Origin: Tricholoma matsutake | Lineage: Eukaryota > Basidiomycota > Agaricomycetes > Agaricales > Tricholomataceae | DNA length: 64,000 bases | NCBI GenBank assembly: GCA_026075535.2 | Contig: AP026549.1 | Span: 8,866,001-8,930,000, forward strand | Direction of reading: 5' to 3' | Shown here: one piece after another, positions 1,709 through 17,172 of the stretch | How positions within the stretch are numbered: the stretch's first letter is position 1 | Layout of the letters: each line of letters starts with the position of its first letter | Position numbers and translations under genes: made by a program | Notes under the pieces: generated by a model | The model's database searches: none | What the model was told of the DNA's origin: nothing | The model's input: only the letters and a program-made list of their open reading frames with translations

Positions 1709-4700
1709 TCAAAATCGTATACGACCAAAGTCCATGACTTGAATGCAACACGGTGCAGCAGTGTGCCATTGGTGGAATTTCTTGATTAACCGAGGGGCAT
1801 TTACGTCAGACTCTTCGACCCATGAGTTCTCCTCATACCCATAACCCTTCCAATGTACCAAATACTGGAGTTTTCCTTGACGCAAATGGCTGTCCAAGAT
1901 TGACTCGACTTCGTATTGGGGTTCTCCCTCGATCACTGTAGGTGGTGGTGGTGGGTGTGAATGGCATCCCGGGAATGGATCTGGGGGAGCTGGAAGCAAT
2001 TTGACGACATGGAAGATGGGATGGAGTCTGGACATGGAGGCTGGGAGGCATAGATGATAGGCATGTGTTCCAATGCACTTGACAATGGGGAAAGGTCCCA
2101 AGAAGCGATGAGCGAGTTTCTTAGATGGACGTGTAGTGGAGACGTCACTGGAGTCAAGATAAACTCGATCACCAACCTTGTACTGAGGGGTTGGGGAGTG
2201 GCGTTGGTTGTAAAATCGTGCCATGTCATCCTTCACCTTTGCTAAGGCTGCCCTTGCCTCCTCCAAGCTATCCCTCATGCATTCTGTGAACTCATTCACC
2301 GTCTCGATGTGTGAGGGAGTTTGGCGAGGTTCAAATCCCATGCATGGATGTCGTCCAGTGTCTAAGAGGAAAGGGGTCTGTTGAGTGGAAGCATGGACAT
2401 GGTTGTTGTATCCGAACTTGGCCAAAGGAAGGAGATCATCCCAATCATCCTGGCGTTCATTGACAAAGAGGCGGATGAACTGCTCCAGTTCCTGGTTGAC
2501 TCGCTCCATCTGGCCATCAGTTTGTGGGTGATAAGCGGTTGAAGCGAGGAGTTTGATCCCCAGGAGTCGGTACAGCTCACGAGTGAACTCTGCCATGAAC
2601 TGAGGGCCACGATCCGAGAGGAAGGCACCAGGAAGTCCATGTAATTTCCACACGTGGTGGAGGTAGAGTCGAGCGGCACCTAGGGCACTGACAGTGGTGT
2701 GAGTGGGAATGAAGTGAGCGCATTTTCCCACTGAGTCAACTGTGCACATCACCGCATCAAACCTGTTTGACTCTGGCAATTCCACCACAAAGTCAACGCT
2801 GACAACATCTCAACGACTCTCTGGAACAGGAAGAGGGTGTAGCTCACCAATAGGCTTGCGACGAGGAACCTTGGTGGGTAAGCAAAGGTCACAAGTGCAA
2901 CAATACTGACCAATGAGCCGTGACATTTGTGGCCACCAATAGTTCCGTGAGGTGAGCTCCAAGGTCTTCCAGCGTCCGGGGTGGCCAGCAATCTGTGAGT
3001 CATGGTGTTGGGATATGATGCGCTGACAAAGGTCTGGGTCATTGGGAACATAGATGTGATCCCTGAAATACAACAAGTCCTCCTTTTCAGCCCACTCTGC
3101 CGCATGTAAGGAAAGGGTCGATCCCTTCCTCAGTTCTTTAACAGCTCGGGTGACAACATCCTCATGTAAACCGCTACGGTTTGTGCGACAAATGTCACAT
3201 AGGATGTCCCGCTCCTTGCCCTGGGGTGCGATGCCTTCCAGTTCATGAATGGTGAACAGGTCTGGCTGCAACAGCACAATGTTTTGGTTGTCACCGCTGC
3301 CATCCCCATGGTCTGCACATTGGGATAGGGCATCGGTCTTCCCCATGCTGCGACCCGGATGGTGGTGCAAGGAGAAGTCGAATCTAGATAGATACAGGGA
3401 CCAACGAGCTTGACGACGGTTCAATTTCTTGGCCATCATGAAGTACTTGAGGTTCTTGTGATCCGTCCAAATTTCCACCTTGTGTTGGGCACCCTCGAGG
3501 AAGTGTCGCCACTCCTCATGCGCACGCATTATCGCCAACATCTCCTTGTCATGGATCTTGTAGTTTCACTCTACAGCACTAAGGCTTTTGGAGTAGAACA
3601 CAACAGGATGCCACTTCTGGTCCTCCAGAGACTGCTGAGACAACACGGCACCCGTCACAAAGTCAGAACTGTTGGCTTCTACATGAAAAGGACGTGAATC
3701 GTCAGCAAAGGTAAGGATTGGAGCGGAAGTGACCATCTCCTTAAGCTTTTTGAATGCCTCCTGTTGTGCATTATACCACCTCCATGCCTCCTTTCCTGTC
3801 AAGTCGAACAGTGGTCGTGCATGATGTGAGAAATCCTTGATAAAACACCGATAGAAATTGATGAAGCCCAGGAAAGACTGCACCTCCTTCTTGTTCGTGG
3901 GCATCGGCCAAGCTGTGACCCCATTTACCTTGATAGGATCCATCTCCACTTGACCCTCCAAGATAATCAGGCCGAGGTACTCGATCTTGGTCCTTTCAAA
4001 CTTGCATTTGTCCTGACGAAGGTAGAGTTTGTACCATCGAAATCGCTCTAGGATGAGGCGCATGATGCGACAGTGCTCTTCAACCGTGCGAGTGAAGATG
4101 AGGATGTCATCGAGATAGATGCAGACAATGCCTTCGAGGATGAGGTCATGGAAGATGTCGTTCATCATGGTCTGAAAGGTGGCAGGGCTATTAGTAAGGC
4201 CAAAGAACATGACAAGCGGTTCAAAAAGACCATGGTTGGTACGAAAGGCTGCCTTCCACTCATCTCCCTCCTTTATCCTCACATTATTATAGCCCCAACG
4301 GACATCGAGCTTGGTGAAGTATCGGGCTCCATGGAGCTGGTTTACAAGTTCGGAGATGAGGGGTAGTGGGTAGCAATTTTTGACCGTGATGTTGTTGAGC
4401 CTTCTGTAGTCTTGAACCGGTCGAAGTGAGCCATCCTTCTTCTTGACAAAGAAAAAGGGAGAGGCCATGGGTGACTTCGATGGTCGAATACGTCCAGAGG
4501 CCAGGTGCTCATTGATGAACTGGTCAAGCTGCCGTTGTTCTTCCAGAGAGAGAGGATAGACCTTGCAGGATGAAGGGGTTGCACCGGGGGTGAGTTTGAT
4601 CGCGTGATCCCATGGCTTGCGCACAGGAAGAGAGTTGAATGACTCCTTGGAGAACACATCTTCAAACTCATGGAGATGAGGGAGTAAGGAGTTAGTAGAG

Positions 4701-5586
4701 GATTTAGCAGCGTTGTTTTTGTGGAAGGCCTCGGCAAGGCATTGGGATATGTTTGATGTGGCACACACCTCATGCAATGAGCGAATCGCAGTGTAGAAGA
4801 TCCGATCACCCTCCTCCACTTCCTCTGGCTCCTCATCATCATCATCATCATCTGAGTCCAGCATCAGATCAGGAACCCCTTCCAATTCCACTTCAGGTAT
4901 AGGCAGGGGTCCAGCACGACACTTCTGAGTACATCGTATTTCCGCCTTCTGTCCACGACCCTGGCTTCTGTGAAACACGTCTGACAGTGGGATGGACTTT
5001 GGCTCATGGTAACCTCCCCGGTATGCCAGTCGACCTCTGGGTTATGGTCTCAAAGCCATGGATATCCCAAAATCACCTTTTGCTTTCCTAATTGAGTGAC
5101 AGCAAAAAGGGCACGCTCACTATGATCTTTGTAACGGAGAACCAGGTCTGCAACCTCTCGGATGGCACCAGCTTCATTTGGGGATCCATCCACATTATAT
5201 ACAGGTATTGGACGTGAGAGTGAGCGAGTATTTAGGCGATGTTGTTGTACCAGATGGGAATCGATGAAGAGACCAGTCGCACCAGAGTCCAGGAGCGCAG
5301 AGACACTGAGTATCTGTCCAGTGTCGGTCGTCTGCAGTTCAATGGCTAGGTTTAAGGAATGTGCAGAGGGAGTGGATGCCACAATATACTTGTGTGGTAG
5401 TTTATGTTCCCATGATTTAATTTTGGGATGTGGAGTAGAAGGAGAGATGGGGAGAGCAGGTACATCTTTATCCAACTTCAAAGGGTCAGAGAGGGGAGCA
5501 GTCACAGAAATGGATTCATTCTCCAGGGATTCAACTGACAAGACTTCAAAGCGGTTATGGACAGGCAGTGAGGGCGTATGATTCAC
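1709..5586 (-). pseudogene. Pro-pol of chromovirus A copy 1: protease, RT, RNase H, integrase, chromodomain
   Basis: Blocks in order on the minus strand: aspartic protease (5586-5050) with LLDSGATGLFID and ILGYPWL; RT (4978-3566) with [19 protein letters not shown] and IYLDDILIF; RNase H (3541 onward) with [10 protein letters not shown]; integrase HHCC zinc module ([11 protein letters not shown] ... CTCDLC); the DDE core with VELPES, LSDRGPQF and QTDGQMERVN; and a C-terminal chromodomain (YEVESILDSH ... LVHWKGYGYEENSWV). RT, RNase H and integrase share one frame, broken by TGA at about 3563 and 2807. The first replaces the CGA of copy 2, the second a TGG kept in copy 3. The protease is in another frame and ends in TGA after YPWL. 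Catalytic residues look intact. A chromodomain in this family typically guides insertion to heterochromatin. Confidence 0.93.
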
Positions 5587-11815: not shown

Positions 11816-14800
11816 ATGGTTATGAAATTTAAGAGACTATTTGCATGGCTCTTTCGCAGTCGTCGGATGAAGAGACAAGTAACACATTATCTCCTCATTA
11901 CAACTTGAACTGCGATTGACCAACACTGTTGTAACACAGGTAACGGCCCTCAATCCAGAAGAAGAGCCCAATGCAGAGGTAGAAGAGCCTGATACAGAGG
12001 TAGAAGAGCCTGATGCGGAGGTAGAAGAGCCCGATACAGAGGTCACATGCACACTGATCCACATGCTATGGTTATACACTCATCGTCCATTTGCAGATGA
12101 ACAGAGCTATTGAAATACGCAGCCAATGTCGCCATTTTCGCATTCTTGTAATCGGACGAGCAAATGCTGGGAAGACTACACTGTTGAAGAAAGTCTGCGA
12201 GACCACAGATGATCCAAGGATTTATGATGCCGATGGGAAAGAGGTTGGTTTTATATATTAATACATATTGGTCAAATCTTACTGTTTGAGTTACTATTCT
12301 GTAGATTGACACATCGGTTGTGGCACCCTCTGCGCAGGTATGTCCTTCATTCACCCTTTCAGGCTTCAGGATAAAATACTGCTCTATCAGCGTGGGCTTC
12401 ATAACATCGAGAACCAATTGGTGTTTGCAAGCAACCCACAGTTTGTCTTTCATGATTCCATGGGACTTGAAGCAGGTGGTACTGAAGAACTAGAAGCTGT
12501 CAAAGCCTTCATTGCTAGCCGAGCAAAAGCAACCCATATGTCAAAGCAGCTACATGCAATTTGGTGCATTTTATGTTTGAATTTATTACTACTGACAGTT
12601 CAAGCTAATGTTTTTGGTTGTGGAAACCAGGTATTGTCTTCCTACTGACAGCAACAGACCGCTTTTAGAAGCTGACCACATTTTCTTTGAAAAATGTGGT
12701 ACTGGAAAAGGTCAGGCAAATTATTTGCTGATAGGGTTCATTTCTTTAACAGAACCATATTCCTAAGTCCCAGTTATTGCTATTTTCACCAAGTTTGATG
12801 CTCTCATTACCACTGCATTTGGGAAACTTTGGAAACAGGGTCACAAATGGGCAGATGCAAAGGACAAGGCTTCAGTTCATGCAGAGCATATATTGAAGGA
12901 GGATTATATTGATCAACTTCTTAAATCCAAGTACAAACCCAAGAAGCATGTTTGGCTGAAAGGTACTTTAAGTATATTTGAATTTAAAATGTGGCTTCTA
13001 ACATATTGTTTACATATAGACATGCATCAGGATGCAACAAGCTGCCTGGAATTGATTAAGGAGACAGCACAGGCTACTGATGATAGTGCTCTCAAGCTGC
13101 TGTTTGTATCAGTCCAACAAAGCAATGTTGATATTTGCATTAGGAGTGCAATAGAAAGGTATTATTTATGTGTTCATTTTGTTTAGCAAGATCTCACCTT
13201 ATCATAGATCTATTGGTAAACATCACATCAGCCTTTCAAAATGTGGGGAGCTTATCTAAGACTGCTTTTTACAGGCAGGTTTGAAAGGGGGTTTGAAAGG
13301 GGTTTGAATGAAGAAGCTCTTAAGGTACTGGTCACGAACACAGCTGCATGGTTTCCACATGTGTGGGTGAGTTCTCAAGTTGATATAATTTTCCTCAGTA
13401 TGTCCTGAGATAATCCATAGTTACATGTAAGCAGAATATGTCTTTGTTTTGATTATATAGTTGCTCTAACAGGTTATCTGGGGAAATTTCTTAGGATGTA
13501 GGTGCCCAACTATGAAACATAATAGGTAAATGTGGCTAATATGCTCAATCCAAGACCTACCAGTGGGTGAGGACTCATTACAGTAATACAAACACTTACT
13601 CAATAATGGTTAATGTTCATATTGAACCAAAACAGAATGTATGTGTTAAATATTCCTATTCCTAAAAGTGTACTTACATATGGCATAGGATGTAAGTTAT
13701 ATATCTAGATAGAGATCATGACTACTACTTATTACTATGTTATGATGGCATATCCTTTTCTCAGGTGAGTACTGATTTTTGAATAACTGGTAACGGATGC
13801 TGAGCACTGAATGCAACTTCTACAGGATGTAACTGGCTGTTTATTGATCAAATATGTTTGCTCAGCACAGACTGCAACCTCTACAGCTTGTAAGTGGCTG
13901 TTTATTGATCAAATCTGTTTGATCAGCACTGACTGCAACTTCTACAGGAAGTAAGTGGCTGCTTGTTGATCAAATATGTTTGCTCAGCACAGACTGCAAC
14001 TTCTACAGCTTGTAAGTGGCTGTTTATTGATCAAATCTGTTTGCTCAGCACTAACTGCAACTTCTACAGAGAGTAAGTGGCTGTTTATTGATCAAATATG
14101 TTTGCTCAGCACTGAGTGCAACTTCTACAGAGAGTAAGTGGCTGTTTATTGATCAAATCTGTTTGCTCAGCACTGACTACAACTTCTACAGAGAGTAAGT
14201 GGCTGTTTATTGATCAAATCTGTTTGCTCAGCACTGACTGCAACTTCTACAGAGAGTAAGTGGCTGTTTATTGATCAAATCTTTTTGCTCAGCACTGAGT
14301 GCAACTTCTACAGGATGTAAGTGGCTGATTATTGATCAATTCTGTTTGCCCAGCACTGGCTGCAACTTCTACAGGATGTAAGTAGCTGTTTATTGATCAA
14401 ATCTGTTTGCTCAGCACTGAGTGCAACTTCTACAGGAAGTAAGTGGTTGTTTATTGATCAAATCTGTTTGCTCAGCACTGACTGCAACTTCTACAGGAAG
14501 TAAGTGGCTGTTTATTGATCAAATCTGTTTGCTCAGCAGTGACTGCAACTTCTACAGTTTGTAAGTAGCTGTTTATTGATCAAATCTGTTTGCTCAGCAC
14601 TGACTGCAACTTCTACAGAGAGTAAGTGGCTGTTTATTGATCAAATATGTTTGCTCAGCACTGAGTGCAACTTCTACAGTTTGTAAGTGGCTGTTTATTG
14701 ATAATCTGTTTGTTCAGCACTGACTGCAACTTCTACAGGGAGTAAGTGGCTGTTTATTGATCAAATCTGTTTGCTCAGCACTGACTGCAACTTCTACAGG

Positions 14801-15693
14801 AAGTAAGTGGCTGTTTATTGATCAAATCCATTTGCTCAGCACTGAGTGCCACTTCTACAGGTTGTAAGTGGCTGTTTATTGATCAACTCTGTTTGCTCAG
14901 CCCTGACTGCAACTTCTACAGAGAGTAAGTGGCTGTTTATTGATCAAATCTGTTTGCTCAGCACTGCCTGCAACTTCTACAGGGAGTAAGTGGCTGTTTA
15001 TTGATCAAATATGTTGGCTCAGCACAGAGTGCAACTTCTACAGTTTGTAAGTGGCTGTTTATTGATCAAATCTGTTTGCTCAGCACTGACTGCAACTTCT
15101 ACAGATTGTAAGTGGTTTTCTATCAATCCAATCTATTTGCTCTGTACTGACTGCCACTTCTACAGTTTGTAAGTAGCCATCTATCTCATTAAATTACTAT
15201 CACTTGATACTGTGCTATAATCAGGAGGTCAATATCTCTGCTTTCACCAAAGCACTTCAACCACTTTTACATCAGGTTTGTCATACAAATACATGTTGCC
15301 TTAATTACTGTCTTTTCATTGCACATGATGTCTAGGCCAATTCATTGCTACCTGATTGTCAGGTGTTCTTTATGGGTGTAGGTATGTTTGCTCAGTTATA
15401 CATTTGTTTCTGGTCCTTTATTCTTTATGAGTTATCCTCTTATGTATCAAGCATACAGTGTCATTGGCAGAAGATGTCACTGTATCACTTGATAGAAGCT
15501 TTCCCATTGCCATCCAGCATTATCAACAACAAGGAATTTTCAACAAGGTGTTTGAATCTTTGAAGGACAACTCAGGTCTATCTGAAAGCAAAGATAAATA
15601 CAATCAGTTGTGGGCACTGATCCAGGATAATTGCTGTACGTGTTTTATTATTCTTCAGCATGCCCATCCAACAGTTTTCCCCTTGTGCTATAG
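11816..15693 (+). CDS. Multi-exon G-domain (P-loop GTPase) protein with a microexon array
   Basis: Reconstructed exons: 11816-11878, 11940-12041, 12097-12243, 12305-12337, 12391-12563, 12631-12710, 12768-12962, 13020-13158, 13279-13366, the microexon array, 15225-15275, 15336-15381, 15459-15635, 15659-15693. All join in one frame without a stop, about 442 residues plus 23 or more single codons. The N-terminus is basic (MKFKRLFAWLF), followed by acidic EEPDxEV repeats. The G domain has the P-loop GRANAGKTT (residues 75-83), DSMG (137-140) and TKFD (207-210). After FPHVW (residue 340) comes the array, then a diverged C-terminal part (SFPIAIQHYQQQGIF). Ordinary introns are mostly 53-67 nt with GT-AG ends. 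The P-loop family is expanded in Agaricomycetes; its biochemical role is unknown to me. The start is the first ATG that links to the G domain; ATG 11822 is an alternative. Confidence 0.82.
11940..12041 (+). repeat. In-frame acidic repeat in exon 2
   Basis: Three and a half copies of a unit reading EEPDxEV or close variants (for example EEPDAEV) are encoded between the basic N-terminus and the P-loop. The DNA repeat is about 24 bp, a multiple of three, so copy-number change would keep frame. Confidence 0.75.
13367..13764 (+). other. Diverged 5' flank of the microexon array
   Basis: This part of the gap between exons contains three further triplets in the same AG-NNN-GT setting: GAT at 13495 (ttag/gtaggt), AAT at 13636 (acag/gtatgt) and GAT at 13689 (atag/gtaagt). 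They are separated by unrelated spacers of 138 and 50 nt. At 13764/13765 an acceptor (ttttctcag) directly abuts a donor (gtgagt) with no base between. If used, these would add three codons before the regular array. Confidence 0.45.
13765..15224 (+). repeat. 61-bp tandem array of intron-like units separated by 3-nt triplets
   Basis: There are 23 triplets bounded by CAG on the left and GTA on the right, at 13826, 13887, 13948, 14009, 14070, 14131, 14192, 14253, 14314, 14375, 14436, 14497, 14558, 14619, 14680, 14739, 14800, 14861, 14922, 14983, 15044, 15105 and 15166. The segments between are 58 nt each (one is 56), begin GTAAGT (first one GTAACT), hold a CTGAC-like branch motif and end CTTCTACAG (first: CCTCTACAG). 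The triplets read GAT CTT GAA CTT AGA x4, GAT GAT GAA GAA TTT AGA TTT GGA GAA GTT AGA GGA TTT ATT TTT. The outer introns (13765-13825 and 15169-15224) are diverged. The array lies in phase 0 between coding exons. Confidence 0.97.
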
Positions 15694-17038
15694 AACTTTG
15701 ATTTTCTCACCTGCTGCTAGTTGACTTTTTCCCCTCTGAATTCTTACCAGCTATCATGTTCATTTGTCTGCCTATTTTTGATACGATCCATCCTTTTTAT
15801 ATTTACAGTTCTTTACTCCTTCAAATATGAGGTCTATTCCAAGCATTCTACAAGGCTGTTCTCATACCTACCTGAGAAGTAGCTATATCCATGTCGATTT
15901 AAGTGAATTTAAGGAATTGATTCTAAATTGAGCACATTGCAGAGTTGCCCCCTCCTGCTGTTTGATCTCACCTAATACACCTTTCAGATCTTTCTGACTT
16001 CAGATGCTAGGCATCTCATGGACCAAATCTGGTCAACAGATGAGATGTCCCTGCATTTGTACAGTCATAATATGATGCTATTCAATGTGGTATATACATA
16101 GGACTTATATATTTAAACTGTTGTTGTAAAGCTGACAATAAGATGAAATCCTCAAGCCACAGTCTTCCCTAAATTCCAATGTGATGTGAGAACCATCAAG
16201 TGTTCATATTTCACTGGAAAAACATGTGGGAAGCAAGCAAATTCAGCTTTAAATCAGGATCAGCTAACTGAGAGCTGAGCTGAACTTCCTTATAGCAGGC
16301 TTAAATTGAGCTTTGACTGAGTTGGTTCACATTAAATTGCCCAGGGATAAGTTACTTAGCCCTCAAATTGACACTTATTTCCAGTTATTGGTTTGCAAAC
16401 AGATAGATAGAGACTGAGTAGCTAGAATGATCATAAATGTGTATATTGCATTTGCAGACCCAAAACCACTCACATGGTGTGTGTTTCCTGCCAAATGATG
16501 GCAGGAGGCATGTCACAACCATGTCATGTGACATTTCCACTCAAGTTGGGCTGGGTCAAAGAATGAATGACAAGGAAGATGACTAGCCATCATTCAGCAA
16601 TCAGATGTAGCATGGGATGCAAGTGATCAACCAGTTGCAACCACAAACACTACAGGCTTGGAGGGTGAGGGTCCTTCAAATAATCCACAGGCTAAGTCAG
16701 AAATGCCAGTGGATGATGCAACTGCAACAGACTTGCTTTGTCACATCACATCATCTTTTACCTGTGTTGATGAAGATGACAATGATGATCTTGATCCCAC
16801 ATCAAGAAAAATTTCCAATATATTTAATTATGAGAACAGCATGGGGACAGAGATCTTGAAGGAACTGGTGTGGGGTGTAACATGGGTCACACCATGTGTG
16901 ACTTCAGCATGTAAGATAGTCCTCATTCATAGTCAATGAGGTCAGATGATGTGACTTTGATGTGATGGATCACATGTTTACCACATCACAATAATGTTTA
17001 TGGTGCGCATTGATGCACTTGGAGCTGTAGAAAATCAA
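15694..17038. other. Downstream intergenic region of the GTPase gene
   Basis: No gene with recognisable content. A 93-codon open stretch at 16658-16939 (+) is rich in Asp and has weak character of a degraded coding sequence, but no motif. The 3' untranslated region and terminator of the GTPase gene should be at the left of this stretch. Confidence 0.4.
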
Positions 17039-17172
17039 CCTAGTACAACAAGAGTGAACTCGGTCTCTGTATAAGTGACTATATTAGTACTGTACCTAGT
17101 ACAACAAGAGTGAACTCAGTCTCTGTATAAGTGACTATATTAGTACTGTACCTAGTACAACAAGAGTGAACT
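17039..17172. repeat. 56-bp tandem repeat, about 2.4 units
   Basis: Units start at 17039, 17095 and 17151 with cctagtacaacaagagtgaa. The first two differ at one position. Part of the unit (cagtctctgtataagtgac) recurs at 17224-17243, where it is flanked by ctcagt/actgag. Confidence 0.9.

Follow-up and report, generated by a model that had tools for sequence, protein, structure and literature searches.

We analysed a 64,000-nucleotide stretch of the Tricholoma matsutake genome (GenBank contig AP026549.1, forward strand; C12:8866001-8930000; hereafter the window), in which a gene for a P-loop GTPase is interrupted by a tandem array of triplets that are candidate exons of one codon each. The GTPase domain is encoded on the plus strand at 12097-13366, in exons 12097-12243, 12305-12337, 12391-12563, 12631-12710, 12768-12962, 13020-13158 and 13279-13366. 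The gene matches MMR_HSR1 (PF01926; E=1.1e-4, 22.7 bits against a cut-off of 21.9) and has the Walker A motif GRANAGKTT within its G domain, for which fungal homologues were found.

The array sits in phase 0 of this gene and consists of 23 triplets at 13826-15168 (plus strand; first bases from 13826 to 15166), each flanked by CAG on the left and GTA on the right. In order, they read GAT, CTT, GAA, CTT, AGA (four times), GAT, GAT, GAA, GAA, TTT, AGA, TTT, GGA, GAA, GTT, AGA, GGA, TTT, ATT and TTT. The period is 61 bp, the sole exception being one 59-bp unit with a 56-nt intron; the other array introns are 58 nt long. A GTAAGT donor follows 22 of the 23 triplets (the first donor is GTAACT), and CTACAG closes each of the 22 introns that lie between triplets. 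The CAG and GTA borders, the period, the donor count and the 56-nt intron had been claimed in an earlier reading of the window's DNA (the original prediction), and all were re-measured as claimed. The 22 introns are alike, the last of them being more diverged. Across 21 full-length units, the triplet columns were the three most variable of the 61 (entropies 1.68, 1.58 and 0.99; next 0.86), a feature absent from the original prediction. On both strands of the window, chains of at least four triplets were confined to the array, where the donor rule admits 22 of the 23 triplets, and to a short leader chain.

The span first assigned to the array, 13765-15224, does contain it, but position 13765 opens a degenerate unit without a triplet (13765-13825, plus strand) and position 15224 closes the last intron (15169-15224, plus strand), which by direct reading and measurement differs from the array unit. 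The degenerate unit lies behind a zero-length CAG/GTGAGT junction, and removal of the intron at 13692-13825 could take one step or two. In our gene model, exon 13279-13366 is in frame with exon 15225-15275 whether the triplets are included or left out, which upholds the predicted phase 0 and in-frame joining of the remaining exons. The other introns of the gene, put at 53-67 nt, have such lengths in the model for all but one, the 120-nt intron at 13159-13278. The C-terminal part begins with the next ordinary exon of the model, 15225-15275 (plus strand; EVNISAFTKALQPLLHQ), and a tentative further exon follows at 15336-15381 (plus strand).

The leader, which separates the last GTPase exon from the array, holds further candidate exons on the plus strand. 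We placed a putative 6-nt exon, TTACAT, at 13421-13426, between CATAG and GTAAGC; the site is present in all five paralogues sharing the 61-bp unit, as TTACAT, TCACAT or GTACAT. Four candidate one-codon exons follow: GAT (D) at 13495-13497, TGG (W) at 13564-13566, AAT (N) at 13636-13638 and GAT (D) at 13689-13691. The introns that separate them are unlike one another, and no chain of at least four arose in 2000 first-order Markov shuffles of 13367-13825. The leader aligns across the five close paralogues, with all four triplet sites kept in the window, L011 and L012 and altered in L009 and L010.

Several other features were observed at these loci. The zero-length CAG/GTGAGT junction, at 13764/13765 in the window, resembles a recursive splice site; it also occurs in L012 and L009, and L010 and L011 have GTGAGA. 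The leader of L009 (L009:4231-5130; C8, oriented +) is in part an inverted copy of the gene's own exons, seen as minus-strand tblastn matches within 4578-4809, and has lost the TGG site. Just ahead of position 5130, one L009 unit has the donor GAAAGT instead of GTAAGT, so its triplet would join the intron piece or be skipped. A 21-bp repeat at 11960-12043 (plus strand), coding for an acidic EVEEPDT-like stretch, is tentatively a probable upstream exon of the GTPase gene; a similar stretch occurs in L011 and L012 and aligns to the N-terminus of the homologue P0001 described below. Downstream of the gene, at 17038-17172, lies a 56-bp tandem repeat of 2.4 copies with 98% matches.

Recurrence and coding signal of the arrays

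To see where such arrays occur, we searched the genome (161,040,721 bases in 13 contigs). The 61-bp-unit pattern gave 84 matches in five loci, with 8, 9, 30, 25 and 23 triplets (95 in total), and all five encode the GTPase. Among the best candidates of a DNA search with the window unit, all 90 matches fell within these five arrays, with none scattered. A generic pattern of two introns around a 3-nt exon gave 191 matches, compared with two for the reversed pattern; among the matches listed, a simple repeat at C6:8074 kb accounts for at least ten, and others come from arrays (67 and 71 bp) in which the introns are different. Arrays were found in the NACHT genes L013, L015, L016 and L017, in another GTPase gene (L018) and just upstream of a HET domain (L014). 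The consensus introns of the arrays form eight mutually unlike groups; two further groupings, those of L016 and L031, do not consist of tandem units. Leaders included, the arrays reach 36 triplets per GTPase locus and 51 in the NACHT locus L013; the window has 23 plus 4. The window gene itself is a GTPase gene and not a NACHT gene, the NACHT domain being shown for L013, L015, L016, L017 and the loci picked by NACHT homology. The five open reading frames (ORFs) scanned with Pfam, which cover parts of genes only, had no ANK match. The array described originally for one gene is thus present there and recurs more widely in the same genome, in NACHT genes as well as further GTPase genes.

We then examined loci chosen by homology alone, counting a chain of at least four triplets as an array in the GTPase and NACHT samples. 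The 4-kb stretches by six further GTPase loci (of about 14) had arrays of 8-36 triplets in five cases and none in L019. The five positive loci represent three intron groups, L023 being a near copy of L018 while L020/L021 and L022/L024 share introns. The 4-kb stretches after eight NACHT domains had chains in seven cases and none in L027. These eight came from the top 11 homology ranks: rank 7 was already in the set, and ranks 4 and 6 were omitted without a recorded reason, rank 4 having an in-frame stop and rank 6 scoring the same as rank 5. No array, chains of three included, was found on either strand of eight P450 loci (from the top 11 places) or in four further HET loci (of 14 places). We therefore rejected HET genes as a general carrier, and the HET case is so far a single locus.

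Exon length was scanned from 0 to 15 in 25 loci, 11 of which had come from length-3 patterns and 14 from homology. Chains of at least four occurred at length 3 only (522 units in 23 loci), and none was antisense; a scan of the antisense strand in 24 fetched loci, 155,024 bases in all, likewise gave none. Length-2 chains were absent from the 25 fetched loci, an exclusion that holds for those loci only, and length-0 chains were likewise absent there, CAG/GTGAGT at 13764/13765 being a single junction. Genome-wide, exons of length 4 gave one match against six in the reversed control, and exons of length 6 gave five against two, all five in the C6:8074 kb simple repeat; neither length showed a signal.

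The triplets behave as codons would. Only one of 540 triplets in 23 loci is a stop, compared with 36.3 expected and a minimum of 21 in 2000 permutations that shuffled bases by position within loci. After loci with fewer than eight triplets and the stop triplet had been dropped, the 217 codon types of 22 loci corresponded to 193 residue types, above the null (177.4 +/- 4.2) and above its largest value, 189, over 500 trials, and 21 of 267 codon pairs differing by a single base were synonymous (0.079; null 0.146 +/- 0.019, minimum 0.092 in 300 trials). Distinct codons thus encode distinct residues above chance when loci are pooled, a result that related loci overstate. C was the third base in 3 of 540 triplets, whereas the ordinary exons of the gene had it in 53 of 302 cases and a NACHT ORF in 113 of 498; splicing is perhaps poor where a C directly precedes the donor.

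Variation between units was concentrated in these codons. In 19 arrays with at least five units of modal intron length and 75% likeness to the consensus (others were dropped), the ratio of triplet to intron differences between units ranged from 4.4 to 29, with 9.1 in the window. In eight of the 19, no intron column reached the variability of any triplet position. L018 combines 16 units of letter-identical 68-nt introns with seven codons, and L023 has eight such units with four codons. Blocks of units are also repeated, for example TTT GAA GAA in L012. Ordinary minisatellite drift would not spare introns while striking three bases. Alike introns beside variable triplets mean either that selection keeps codons diverse while exchange homogenises introns, or that the codons predate the introns; we favour the former.

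Homologous proteins and alternative readings

Homologous proteins give a partial view of the array site. A T. matsutake protein, P0002, is 92% identical to the query across 64% of it. P0001 (source jgi; 363 residues from a 1302-bp contig) is 79% identical over 71% of the query, runs uninterrupted through the intron positions of the GTPase gene, and then reads WFPHSW, VQWNYSEDVA and VSSCLVIKSVCSALTATSTV. This last tail of twenty residues is the intron of the 61-bp unit translated in frame 0 from GTA. Within VQWNYSEDVA, a W followed by N is predicted by the corresponding leader triplets of the window, and a V by the 6-nt exon of L011. Judged by its length and continuity, the P0001 contig appears to be RNA. 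In its source, splicing seems to have worked through the leader and first units piece by piece and to have left one unit in place, which is only suggestive of alternative splicing.

Other homologues vary at this site. In P0058, YFPHVW runs almost straight into the C-terminal part; directly after YFPHVWD comes KNVAFCIDALKN, which by eye resembles the window exon 15225-15275. P0042 and P0079, from jgi contigs 2583 and 1727 bp long, have low-complexity inserts at the array site, delimited by eye, with 12 and 8 residue types, respectively. Spliced arrays are a possible source of these inserts, which fit such an origin and prove nothing. A search with P0079 residues 285-458 returned only P0079 itself, and NACHT homologues read by eye had no clear spliced insert. 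A WFPH-like motif is present in 54 of the 120 homologues listed (P0001-P0120), and 45 of these 54 continue for 45 residues or fewer beyond it, as if GTPase gene models in other Agaricomycetes stopped at the array site.

Taking the observed anatomy, recurrence, exon length of three, near-lack of stops and codon-level variation together, we consider it probable that each triplet is a real exon spliced as one codon, that the codons form a hypervariable self/non-self insert and that the introns serve as a shuffling scaffold. The original prediction that each triplet is spliced in as a single codon has thus gained strong indirect support, from 1/540 stops, the exon length, codon variability and P0001; inclusion in matsutake messenger RNA (mRNA) itself is what we infer from these lines.

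Several results weigh against this reading. The matsutake arrays are known here from genome DNA alone. The lone stop is a TGA at L025:1447, and more triplets come after it. In the residue-type test, even the locus with the lowest P (0.072) misses the 0.05 level, and the pooled result is inflated by relatedness among loci. Eleven of the 19 arrays have one or more intron columns that vary as much as one of the triplet positions. Linkage between codon and intron is weak and mixed, with permutation P<0.05 in three of nine arrays for the following intron and in one of nine for the preceding intron, a result that neither proves nor excludes recombination inside introns. The ten residues of P0001 could come from a single 30-nt exon, only some of them fit the leader, and their source is a relative. 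Arrays are missing from all four further HET loci, one of six GTPase loci and one of eight NACHT loci, and the chains in L028 and L031 are short.

We weighed four other explanations and rejected each as the main one. The whole stretch could be one long intron with a minisatellite, its triplets never entering mRNA, given that the flanking exons join in frame without the array and that P0058 has YFPHVW nearly contiguous with the C-terminal part. This is very unlikely in view of the single stop where 36 were expected, the exon length of 3, the confinement of variation to codons, and the ten codons and single retained unit of P0001. Still less probable is recursive (ratchet) splicing, in which AG-NNN-GT sites would be used stepwise and the triplets taken out again. 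The zero-length CAG/GTGAGT site at 13764/13765 and the donor after each triplet agree with such a process. However, ratchet points require no 3-nt spacer, frame or stop avoidance, all of which are present here, and P0001 also speaks against it.

An old exon could also have been cut codon by codon by mobile intron copies, with no selection for diversity. Insertion of this kind accounts for identical introns beside unlike codons, and introner-like elements have been reported in fungi, as far as the cited source was available to us (PMC4457414). It would be expected to leave copies at scattered, unrelated sites, a trait that the window unit lacks, with all 90 of its best matches inside the five arrays. 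Also at odds with it are the rarity of third-base C (3/540 versus 53/302 and 113/498, which splice-site preference may explain in part), the repeated unit blocks such as TTT GAA GAA and the near-absence of residues at the site in P0058, and we regard it as unlikely. The arrays might instead mark decaying genes in which splicing fails, the loci being pseudogenes. The TGA triplet in L025, the inverted self-copy and lost donor of L009, and the 45 of 54 motif-bearing homologues that end within 45 residues of the motif would fit decay. A single stop in 540 triplets and arrays in 12 of 14 homology-picked loci would not, and short models are also expected where predictors cannot place 3-nt exons; we give general decay very little credence.

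A proposed mechanism and its relation to known systems

In fungal splicing, short complete introns and intron definition let each unit go out alone. Under our reading of the triplets as exons, each complete 58-nt intron would be removed singly and each triplet kept as one codon; retention of one 58-nt intron shifts the frame. The GTPase product would then have about 27-29 hypervariable residues inserted between its GTP-binding and C-terminal parts. Because each unit adds one codon, changes by whole units keep the frame, which would make exchange within introns a safe way of reshuffling codons. With the near-identical introns as scaffold, misaligned recombination or conversion could copy, delete and reorder codons without a frame shift. 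Selection for amino-acid change would keep codons unlike while introns become homogenised. Fungal NLR-type genes have been linked to non-self recognition and cell death, according to the parts of one paper that we consulted (PMC4986451), and the link of the HET domain to heterokaryon incompatibility is taken here from its Pfam name. Since the carriers are GTPase genes, NACHT genes and one HET locus, the insert would most likely be a self/non-self recognition segment, as has been proposed for the microexons of Tuber nank genes.

We suggest tentatively, as a possibility that falls short of even chances, that mushroom-forming fungi possess a codon shuffler that is general and frame-safe. Identical introns would act in it as recombination tracts, single codons would come, go and change order as cassettes, and combinatorial splicing would add to the variety, giving hypervariable recognition segments in two or more unrelated families (GTPase and NACHT) and one HET locus, independent of the ascomycete case. 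If so, the architecture separates a constant part, the intron with its splicing and recombination signals, from a varying part of one codon, and a recognition segment could change residue by residue with the frame always safe. This bears on how fungal NLR-type genes generate recognition diversity and can be tested in an edible, sequenced fungus. Our results also suggest that gene models of the carrier families are probably cut short or wrong at arrays, and the arrays offer a natural test of the lower size limit for exon definition by the spliceosome between short, complete introns.

The original prediction knew of no described system like the array, a claim that fails. The relevant passages of three papers describe diversification of NACHT-ANK (nank)/NLR genes in Tuber melanosporum by alternative splicing of codon-sized (3-bp) microexons, reported in 2012; two of them credit Iotti et al. 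2012 and the third gives a numbered reference (PMC4986451, PMC10197012, PMC3689799). Both systems have tens of codon-sized exons, candidate ones in matsutake, in NLR-type genes, and in Tuber these are proposed, in the same descriptions, to diversify the sensor part. They differ in that Tuber is an ascomycete with NACHT-ANK genes, whereas here a basidiomycete carries the arrays also in P-loop GTPase genes and beside a HET domain. Head-to-tail alike units in which mainly the codon varies are a matsutake feature, as judged against Tuber through the descriptions in citing papers.

In the WD, ANK and TPR repeats of fungal NLRs, few positions vary. The matsutake arrays share with these highly conserved repeats, as one paper describes them in part, a high internal conservation and the gene class (PMC4986451), but there the repeat is protein, whereas here it is an intron plus one codon. 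Fungal introner-like elements and stwintrons likewise form families of alike introns; in the portions of the literature consulted, they are spread over genes or nested, and tandem one-codon exons are not named for them. The 3-bp microexon of Drosophila homothorax indicates, in the account available to us, that an exon of this size can be spliced, although it is a single regulated microexon, unlike the matsutake arrays (PMC7392893). The literature searched yielded nothing on basidiomycete arrays of one-codon exons. The kind of exon is thus already known. As far as the literature searched shows, the new points are that a basidiomycete has it, that it occurs in GTPase genes and next to a HET domain, that units with alike introns lie head to tail, and that the contrast of constant introns with variable codons has been measured.

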